Assembly: GCF_029643245.1 (NCBI RefSeq)
Contig: NZ_CP116398.1
Coordinates: 3,716,372-3,780,371 of the forward strand
Length of the DNA: 64,000 bases
DNA from: Methylomonas sp. EFPC3
GTDB lineage: Bacteria > Pseudomonadota > Gammaproteobacteria > Methylococcales > Methylomonadaceae
Reading direction: 5' to 3'
Position 1 is the stretch's first letter. Each line of letters opens with the position of its first letter. Below the pieces are notes generated by a model. The model made no database searches. It was not told the DNA's origin and saw only the letters and a list, made by a program, of their open reading frames with translations. This document shows, one piece after another, positions 48,133 to 49,914 of this stretch. A program made the position numbers and the translations under genes.

Positions 48133-48307
48133 TGGGGTTCTCCGTTGGTTAAACCTTTCCGCTTCAGGCGGCTTTGGCGGTGAGTAGTTCCAATGCCAAA
48201 TCTCGTTTGGGGCATGGAACAATTTGAAAGCTTCGGTCACACGACAGGCGCGAAGACACTCCAAAAAACGCTTACGCTCCCGAGTATGCCCGAGCCGAAC
48301 GATTTTA

Positions 48308-48324
48308 ATCTATTATTAATAGAT
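48308..48324. promoter_or_regulatory. 17-bp palindrome upstream of the nuclease cassette
   Basis: A perfect palindrome of two 8-base arms around a single T (48308-48324). It lies 22 bases before the ATG of the GIY-YIG-like gene. An AT-rich, -10-like TATTAT core lies inside it. Its size and place suit an operator for self-regulation, or a weak terminator hairpin, as T-rich sequence follows. Confidence 0.5.
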
Positions 48325-48346
48325 AATTTTTTGATTAGAGGTAGAA

Positions 48347-49327
48347 ATGTCATTTGGATATATATATGTCTTAGTCAATAACTCATTGCCTTATTTGAAA
48401 ATAGGCTATACAACCCGTAGCCCTGAGGTTAGAGCTGCTGAATTAACCTCAACAGGAGTTCCATCGGCTTTTAGAGTAGCATACAAAGCTTATGTTGCTA
48501 ATTGCGAGGAGATTGAAAGAAAAATCCACACAAGCCTAAGGGAGCATAGGGTTTCCAGTAATCGTGAGTTTTTTGAAATAGACATTACGACAGCTGTTTC
48601 AAAGATTGACGAAATCATTAATAATGTCAATTCACCTCCTGATACGTTATATTTTTCTGATTTTGATCCTAAGCAATATATTCTAAAACTCAAAGAGCAA
48701 AATGATGTATTGCGATCCGAGCAGGAGCTCTTAATTGAGTCAAACATGAACGAGGCAAAGAATTATTTAAGTCGCGTCTATGAATTATTGCAGGAGGTCA
48801 ATGGCTTTATAGATGATAATGGAAATAAAGTCATCTATTCACTAGATATTGACAACAACAGTATCTCTATAATCAAAGAAATTCACATATGCGAGCTTCC
48901 TGAAGAATTTGGGCGCTTCGATGATTTATATGAGTATTTTAACCCAAAATATGACAAGGCTGAAACCAGATTTACAGACCCAAAATTGTGCGCAAAAAGA
49001 ATTCTGACTGAAACAAATTGGTGCAATGAAGCTGAGATTAGCCTACGATTGAATCCAGGAGTTGATTTTTTAGATGCTATTAGAGAAGGCTGGGAGCGTT
49101 ACTGTTCAGATACAAGTGTGGGGTATGCATCTGAAGATTTTGAGTCAGAATTTTTTGTCTTCTTAGATGAGTGCTGGCTTGATTTTATAATTGAATTCTG
49201 CGCAAGACATGATCTAGCCGACATTGTATTAAAGTCTTGGAAGATGCTACCCGACTTTATGACAGAGACCGAAGAATACCATGCCAAACTATTGAGTTTT
49301 ATTAAATTTCATTTAACAACAAAATGA
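48347..49327 (+). CDS. T5orf172/GIY-YIG nuclease-like protein
   Basis: 326 residues. The ATG at 48347 follows GAGGT (48337-48341). The N-terminal domain (about 1-80) fits the T5orf172/Mug113 branch of GIY-YIG endonucleases: YIYVLVNN (5-12), YLKIGYTTR (16-24), R29, an E54/E55/E57...H61 cluster (CEEIERKIH) and REFFEI near 73. A helical/coil region (about 110-155) and a C-terminal region of unknown fold follow, with Trp/Glu-rich segments. The DNA is clearly lower in GC than the chromosome around it, suggesting transfer. It overlaps the next gene by 4 bases (ATGA). Defence or phage-related nuclease activity is inferred. Confidence 0.72.
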   Translation: MSFGYIYVLVNNSLPYLKIGYTTRSPEVRAAELTSTGVPSAFRVAYKAYVANCEEIERKIHTSLREHRVSSNREFFEIDITTAVSKIDEIINNVNSPPDTLYFSDFDPKQYILKLKEQNDVLRSEQELLIESNMNEAKNYLSRVYELLQEVNGFIDDNGNKVIYSLDIDNNSISIIKEIHICELPEEFGRFDDLYEYFNPKYDKAETRFTDPKLCAKRILTETNWCNEAEISLRLNPGVDFLDAIREGWERYCSDTSVGYASEDFESEFFVFLDECWLDFIIEFCARHDLADIVLKSWKMLPDFMTETEEYHAKLLSFIKFHLTTK

Positions 49328-49887
49328 CTGTTAATTTGCAAGACACCTTAGCCGTTACTGGAAATATTCACCATCTCTCTGGTTATATCTCGTACTTTGA
49401 ACATCAAGTTGAAGCAAGAAGAGAGTGCGACAATATTTTAACCGAATGCCCAAACTACTTTGCATGGCTATATATTTCATCGGAGAGCATATATTATAAA
49501 ATCAAAGAGCTGATTTACTTTAATGAAAAAGATCACACGGTCTTTGACAAGCCATATAGCGAGCTTTTAAATTTATTATTCTCAAGCTTTGCTCTGAGCA
49601 ATGAGGGAAAGAAGCGAGTATTGATTTTTTCAAAAATACGCCACCTACTTGTTCATAAAGGTTTTCCAAATCCCCATTTTACTCCATCTAATACCCCCAG
49701 GCGTTTGGCAAGCGACATACCCTTTGATCTAGATGATGTTTGGAATGTATGCGAAAAACTCAGAGACCCAAAAGTCTATTTTGATCTTAAGACAGATTAT
49801 TATCTTATATTAAATGAGTTGGATTCTATGGAAATTAATATTAATATTAATTTTGGCAATATTGAATTTTATAAAGGAACTTCTTAA
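49324..49887 (+). CDS. Putative HEPN-like protein, partner of the GIY-YIG-like gene
   Basis: 187 residues, translationally coupled to the preceding gene (overlap ATGA). It is predicted to be mostly helical. It contains SKIRHLLVHKG with R106-x4-H111, the catalytic motif of HEPN ribonucleases found in many toxins, Abi and CRISPR effectors. The C-terminal part (about 150-187) is Asn/Ile-rich with beta strands (INININFGNIEF). No exact family recognised. The single motif makes this a hypothesis; other helical proteins can contain R-x4-H by chance. Confidence 0.6.
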   Translation: MTVNLQDTLAVTGNIHHLSGYISYFEHQVEARRECDNILTECPNYFAWLYISSESIYYKIKELIYFNEKDHTVFDKPYSELLNLLFSSFALSNEGKKRVLIFSKIRHLLVHKGFPNPHFTPSNTPRRLASDIPFDLDDVWNVCEKLRDPKVYFDLKTDYYLILNELDSMEINININFGNIEFYKGTS

Positions 49888-49914
49888 TTTCTCTTTACCT
49901 TCCCCTCAAAAGGG

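Follow-up and report, generated by a model that had tools for sequence, protein, structure and literature searches.

Odn is a T5orf172 nuclease whose conserved glutamate has been mutated in experiments (PMC8263062), and in Odn and the phage homing endonucleases the T5orf172 domain is combined with an added module (PMC8263062, PMC10448857). T5orf172 (PF10544) and MUG113 (PF13455) form a branch of the GIY-YIG nucleases. A published table places PD-T4-3 and PD-lambda-1 under GIY-YIG (PMC10952713), 6 systems out of a selected 21 with anti-phage activity showed remote similarity to HEPN superfamily RNases, with a GIY-YIG nuclease among the domains (PMC9519451), and both nuclease types are listed in Dnd neighbourhoods (PMC10853773). 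No two-gene GIY-YIG/HEPN system is described in the accessible parts of the open-licence papers that name both. Here we analyse two overlapping genes, A and B, of Methylomonas sp. EFPC3. They lie in a window of 64,000 nucleotides (the whole stretch of DNA analysed; contig NZ_CP116398.1, positions 3,716,372 to 3,780,371), whose numbering is used throughout. The approximately 95 N-terminal residues of A resemble the T5orf172/MUG113 branch and keep its core, and the rest of the protein is without a found relative. In contrast to Odn and the phage homing endonucleases, A has no added module listed by Pfam, lies on a bacterial chromosome and is accompanied by an apparently coupled second gene.

We tentatively read A and B as a strain-specific accessory anti-invader cassette (probability about 0.4), with A as the DNase and B as its HEPN-like RNase or toxin partner. 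This reading is supported by the T5orf172 domain of A and its invariant core, the matches to PDC-S57 and PD-Lambda-1, the ATGA overlap without a clear ribosome-binding site for B, the AT-rich slot with exchanged contents, and the motif RHLLVH in B. Among these, the layout of the operon, the variable slot and the nuclease domain, whose core is intact, are directly supported. A first description of this DNA, made from its letters without database searches (the sequence-only reading), had proposed a small anti-phage or toxin-like system; the coupled pair in an accessory, swapped slot stands, whereas the HEPN half was not established. The features concerned are the following.

48347-49327, plus strand: gene A, 326 aa, with an N-terminal T5orf172/GIY-YIG domain (residues 4-93) and a C-terminal part without known family
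49324-49887, plus strand: gene B, an orphan of 187 aa with RHLLVH at residues 106-111
48337-48341, plus strand: putative ribosome-binding site of gene A, AGAGG, predicted by inspection of the sequence
48308-48324, no strand: palindrome ATCTATTATTAATAGAT with 8-bp arms, a possible operator or promoter element, spanning the left junction of the slot
48311-51034, no strand: strain-variable slot of 2.72 kb, GC 0.39, holding A, B, a RAYT element and a DUF6559-like frame, delimited by blastn against 14 kb of the same-species genome G477

The AT-rich two-gene cassette with an ATGA overlap noticed earlier was confirmed. The GC content is 0.352 over 48347-49887, against 0.564 in window positions 1-48310 and 0.598 in 51035-64000, and the TGA of gene A (49325-49327) overlaps the ATG of gene B (49324-49326). 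No ribosome-binding site is evident at the start of gene B, which together with the ATGA overlap fits translational coupling to A, and the two genes probably form one translationally coupled operon. They are alike in low GC at all codon positions. Gene B is probably real, as judged from its open frame and codon usage: when the 1.58-kb stretch was shuffled 2,000 times, no stop-free run of 187 codons appeared, and among the six frames that of gene B scores highest under the codon usage of gene A (+0.095 versus -0.219 to -0.410 per codon). The upstream palindrome, also noticed earlier, is indeed present; shuffling the 56 bases 48291-48346 gave one as good in 159 of 20,000 trials. A perfect 22-bp AT palindrome occupies 49832-49853 within the 3' end of gene B, where the stretch encodes an Asn-Ile repeat. 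The numbers of terminator-like and promoter-like sites are 0 (1.8 expected) and 6 (8.1 expected), respectively. The Rfam scan of 47600-51200 gave no match.

As judged from profile matches and alignments, the N-terminus of gene A is a T5orf172/GIY-YIG nuclease domain with intact core positions, in agreement with the sequence-only reading. The matches to the Pfam families T5orf172 (E 4.7e-15, 56.4 bits, curated cut-off 20) and MUG113 (E 7.9e-13, 49.2 bits, curated cut-off 22.3) are well above the cut-offs, and the T5orf172 domain spans residues 4-93. The motifs named earlier, YLKIGYTTR, R29, E57 and H61 in A and R106 and H111 in B, are all present. Across the 33 aligned rows, which comprise gene A and 32 of its 35 relatives (L038, L050 and L053 were left out, their frames being unread), no variation is seen at Y7, K18, G20, R29, G37, P39, E57, H61, E74 or F76, and a second alignment of 12 rows agrees on the invariant core. 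By comparison with I-TevI, E74 (in REFF) is probably a likelier metal ligand than E57. Gene A probably encodes a DNA-cutting enzyme.

The best PADLOC match of gene A is PDC-S57 (E 2.6e-27), where PDC presumably stands for 'phage defence candidate'. This match joins residues 3-92 of A to positions 5-95 of the 212 in the profile, and a match to the full model was not obtained. PD-Lambda-1, for which the table in PMC10952713 cites Vassallo et al. (2022), is matched with E 4.7e-8 at profile positions 356-451 of 496. The nuclease domain is alike, but it is C-terminal in PD-Lambda-1 and N-terminal in gene A, and gene B matches no PADLOC model. A match of mCpol to gene A (E 0.35) was dismissed as a coiled-coil artefact, and the Protein Data Bank (PDB) sequence search with gene A gave no match. 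The models from the fold prediction suggested for both proteins are too poor for a fold call, with a mean pLDDT of 43.7 for A (AF2 without alignment) and 29.0 for B. The blocks covering residues 1-100 of A have pLDDT 44-61 and show, at low confidence, a GIY-like order of strands and helices.

No convincing relative of the approximately 215 residues after the nuclease domain was found in the searches made. Residues 110-326 matched only in the genome of origin, both among 237 genomes of the family and among 234 sampled genomes of the phylum. The C-terminal part was detected neither in pattern scans nor by tblastn of phages, and in a blastp comparison of residues 109-326 with 33 relatives the best E was only 0.79. 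DUF723, DUF4397 and the MNT partner domain are not listed by Pfam for gene A.

Full-length A was matched in 46 of 311 genomes of the order, its own included; the 56 places besides its own locus are all within query residues 1-126. Fifty plasmid records and 100 phage records contain matches, none spanning 80% of A. Pattern scans of viral contigs gave nothing with the domain of gene A itself and four near-identical loci with that of the relative L031. From these matches 52 loci with relatives of A were assembled: 29 from order genomes (of the 56 places), 18 from plasmid records (of 50), four from viral contigs and one from a phage (of 100 records). The nuclease domain is seen in all of them. A same-strand open reading frame (ORF) of at least 80 aa follows within 200 bases at 31 of the 52 loci and within 30 bases at ten. 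This is a modest test, as the set includes near-duplicates (L116-L119, L057/L058, L063/L064) and little sequence follows the nuclease gene in some of the stretches. The GIY-YIG/HEPN pair did not recur among the loci examined. Since gene B has no accepted relative, the missing recurrence cannot separate a new system from chance neighbours. On a Vibrio tubiashii plasmid (L066 3866-6279), approximately 1.8 kb separate an A-related GIY-YIG gene from one whose annotation is AbiH abortive infection protein.

The HEPN identity of gene B, which derives from the single motif RHLLVH, is not established: B has no family match, nothing emerged from a profile test of low power, and the best similarity is to part of the non-HEPN protein TrhO. 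No match to B was listed by Pfam, NCBIfam or PADLOC at E up to 10, where the HMMER filters drop most matches above E approximately 0.1, and PHROG gave a single match with E 0.11. The stretch R106-H-L-L-V-H111 has the form R-H-x3-H and meets the Rx4-6H motif of HEPN RNases with a polar residue after the arginine. In this motif R is mostly followed by N, D or H; many HEPN families also have an acidic residue, which often belongs to an Ex3[KR] and is typically placed further upstream (PMC3710099). The sole Ex3[KR] of gene B is E94-GKK-R98, 12 residues before RHLLVH.

The bare R-x4-H is weak on its own: when gene B was shuffled 200,000 times, 46,618 of the products (23%) contained it. The form R[NHD]x3H occurs in 9,004 and the fuller hydrophobic form [ILVM]R[NH]x[ILVAM][VIALC]H in 107 of 200,000; the latter is found once in the 19,312 aa of 42 ORFs of the window, but this pattern was written post hoc, with B already seen. 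In the structure model of B all 187 residues have pLDDT below 50, and R-H-x3-H falls in a helix of this unreliable model. In hhalign, gene B scored 0.2% against RiboL-PSP (15 proteins) and 0.1% against DUF4145 (10 proteins), and three shuffles each scored alike. In the calibration, leave-one-out comparisons exceeded 50% for 5 of 15 RiboL-PSP and 7 of 10 DUF4145 proteins, and none of the 25 exceeded 4% across the sets; thus the null result speaks only against closeness to RiboL-PSP and DUF4145. The best match in the PDB sequence search with gene B, a botrocetin chain with E 0.81, was rejected.

The three genome sets searched with gene B, from the class (369), the order (311, E at most 0.1) and the phylum (398), overlap, and no accepted homologue was found in any of them. 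The order search returned B itself and 12 weak matches, the best with E 0.026; five of the 12 hold stops, and the match in G490 (L027) covers the same part of B as L019 and L020. Several candidates were rejected: the class match L002 crosses a stop codon before ending within a zinc-ribbon-like protein, L019 and L020, the two order matches that were inspected, each lie antisense to a histidine-kinase gene, and the phylum match L112 is antisense to a repeat protein and contains a stop. Searches by tblastn of plasmids (E at most 0.01) and phages gave nothing, and neither did pattern scans of the genome and viral contigs, which are sensitive to close relatives only. A degenerate codon scan for IRHLLVHKG gave two viral loci whose frames were judged non-genic.

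The phylum match L113 is in frame within TrhO, a tRNA uridine hydroxylase with UPF0176_N and rhodanese domains (L113 1390-2478). Residues 30-131 of B align with it at 26% identity and 35.8 bits, and none of 200 shuffles did as well; for trhO of Escherichia coli (L134) the score is 33.1 bits, with none of 100 shuffles as good. The alignment with E. coli-type TrhO covers residues 23-160 of B and falls in the N-terminal domain of that protein. B lacks the rhodanese domain. This faint similarity is weak and unexplained, and we think that it is probably due to chance. L113 was picked from 398 genomes, its E of 2.3e-4 being that for one genome, and L134 is 73% identical to it. For three distant TrhO proteins the scores were 10-15 bits, and between 49 and 96 of 100 shuffles did as well. 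In hhalign, B scored 63% against five TrhO proteins including L113, 23% without it and 0.1% against the three distant proteins alone. The plasmid search hit none of 58 TrhO-bearing records. Besides, Pfam lists no match of B to UPF0176_N, and B is without the EGxN that TrhO shares with its two closest PDB matches. The similarity moved the odds slightly: that of the cassette reading went from 0.42 to 0.40, a B that is not a nuclease became marginally more probable, and a two-nuclease immune complex marginally less so.

The A/B genes reside in a slot with conserved flanks and exchanged contents. In G477, a genome of the same species, window positions 41006-48310 and 51035-53684 align at 97.7% (blastn), and 48311-51034 is replaced by 4,047 bp of other DNA with GC 0.384 between flanks of 0.58-0.60. 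This is the sole within-species comparison, and the 14 kb fetched set the outer limits of the alignment. The left junction is 36 bases before the start of gene A, within the palindrome 48308-48324. The stretches 48281-48330 and 51011-51060 share no word of 7-12 bases, and the tRNA scan of the window found none. Anti-phage hotspots often show common flanks with exchanged AT-rich contents.

The G477 slot (L016 2651-6697) contains a DUF4238 gene (Pfam E 6.8e-25), an abutting gene for a 459-aa protein and a third gene without a good match, all with 36-40% GC. The 459-aa protein has the stretch SPDIKVASGNTEWFIECKR, which resembles PD-(D/E)xK, and its best Pfam E is 0.092. The DUF4238/nuclease-like pair is possibly another two-gene cassette. 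In G474, from another species of the genus, homology of the left flank stops at window position 48140 and does not return until 54947; the interval carries other genes. One of the different genes of this interval (L017 7077-11984), with GC 0.44, overlaps the equivalent of window 47650-48264 and presumably resembles a radical-SAM rRNA methyltransferase.

The remainder of the slot is occupied by the following features.

49950-50519, minus strand: RAYT (REP-associated tyrosine transposase), NF047646 E 1.2e-56
49920-49947, plus strand: REP hairpin left of RAYT (genome 3766291-3766318)
50498-50526, minus strand: REP hairpin right of RAYT, inverted relative to the left one (genome 3766869-3766897)
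50538-50993, plus strand: DUF6559-like reading frame (PF20196, 28.5 bits, cut-off 27), start uncertain

The REP pattern has ten matches genome-wide, one site being counted on both strands, and four of them are near 0.18-0.21 Mb; there are 14 RAYT-like matches in the genome, ten of them above the cut-off. Judging by these repeats and relatives, RAYT is best seen as an independent passenger of the slot, separate from the A/B unit. The sequence-only reading was right that a RAYT stands beside the pair, but with its own REP flanks and relatives elsewhere in the genome it adds little to the interpretation of A and B. The DUF6559-like frame is probably accessory and not evidently part of the A/B unit. 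It has low GC and a tail rich in aspartate and phenylalanine (FPDIDFSIFDFLDF).

Several observations weigh against the cassette reading. As far as looked, A and B are not found adjacent elsewhere: the next gene after a relative of A contains the strict HEPN motif at none of the 52 loci and a loose form at one (L123). Both gene B and the C-terminal part of A are without accepted homologues, so their co-conservation cannot be tested. PDC-S57 is named in none of the open-licence papers searched, and no account of its function was found. Phage homing endonucleases, too, commonly contain T5orf172 domains (PMC10448857). RHLLVH of gene B aligns with RERIVA in TrhO, and if that similarity were real, B would not be HEPN. 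The slot yielded no characterised defence gene, and the PADLOC match to DUF4238 in G477 is weak (E 0.014).

These points invite other explanations. Somewhat unlikely in our opinion, though the most serious competitor, is that A is a solitary mobile nuclease, either homing-type or a stray T5orf172 protein, and B is unrelated, fast-evolving cargo in a slot that collects mobile DNA. The lack of a fixed partner after the relatives of A would agree with this (31 of 52 loci with any ORF within 200 bases, 10 of 52 within 30), as would the RAYT/REP element and the unrelated reading frame in the same slot. However, ATGA coupling and the common low GC of A and B at all codon positions speak against it. 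Moreover, phage T5orf172 homing genes almost always occur with CapR, DUF723 or DUF4397 (PMC10448857), and Pfam lists neither DUF723 nor DUF4397 in A; the CapR model of that paper is custom and outside the models run on gene A. It is also unlikely, but deserves attention, that B is not a nuclease at all and would serve as a specificity subunit, an RNA-binding partner or an inhibitor of A, with RHLLVH as a coincidence. The frequency of the bare motif in shuffles, the silence of the HEPN models and the TrhO alignment over approximately 100 residues (35.8 bits for L113, 0/200 shuffles; 0/100 for L134) are in line with this, and E94 lies just 12 residues before the motif, whereas the acidic residue is typically further upstream (PMC3710099). 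On the other hand, the fuller hydrophobic motif is rare (107/200,000, post hoc), and the TrhO match is the best from 398 genomes, with three distant TrhO proteins silent and neither UPF0176_N nor EGxN in B.

A toxin-antitoxin pair, in which B would be a HEPN toxin and A, via its C-terminal part, the antitoxin, seems improbable. The overlap of the two genes and the possible operator palindrome before them would fit such a pair, and HEPN toxins are common in toxin-antitoxin pairs (PMC3710099). But gene A, by its domain, is likely an active nuclease of 326 aa, and the MNT partner domain is not listed in it. To our knowledge, no antitoxin resembles such a protein. Equally doubtful is the boldest possibility, that A and B form an unnamed two-nuclease immune complex, in which a GIY-YIG DNase would act on invader DNA and a HEPN RNase would shut down the cell, the two being joined by the C-terminal domain of A; that domain and B would then belong to no described family.

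Under the cassette reading, which we prefer, the A/B operon would be an acquisition in a chromosomal slot whose contents are exchanged among strains. Gene A would encode a metal-dependent DNase whose T5orf172/GIY-YIG domain cuts invading DNA, and its C-terminal part may provide recognition and specificity or dock B. Gene B would encode a partner dedicated to A, most likely an RNase or toxin of HEPN-like type. A would hold this protein until an invasion, when its own engagement or blockage would set B free or activate it; B may act as a back-up toxin. The anti-invader role, the role of the C-terminal part, the contact between A and B and all of the activity of B are what we infer as most likely.

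If A and B do not act together, this is ordinary accessory DNA. If they do, they would constitute a small cassette with a DNA-cutting and possibly an RNA-cutting enzyme, comprising approximately 400 residues of protein without confirmed relatives in a slot that swaps its contents. More uncharacterised pairs, of which the DUF4238/nuclease-like one in G477 is an example, may be sought in the slot itself.

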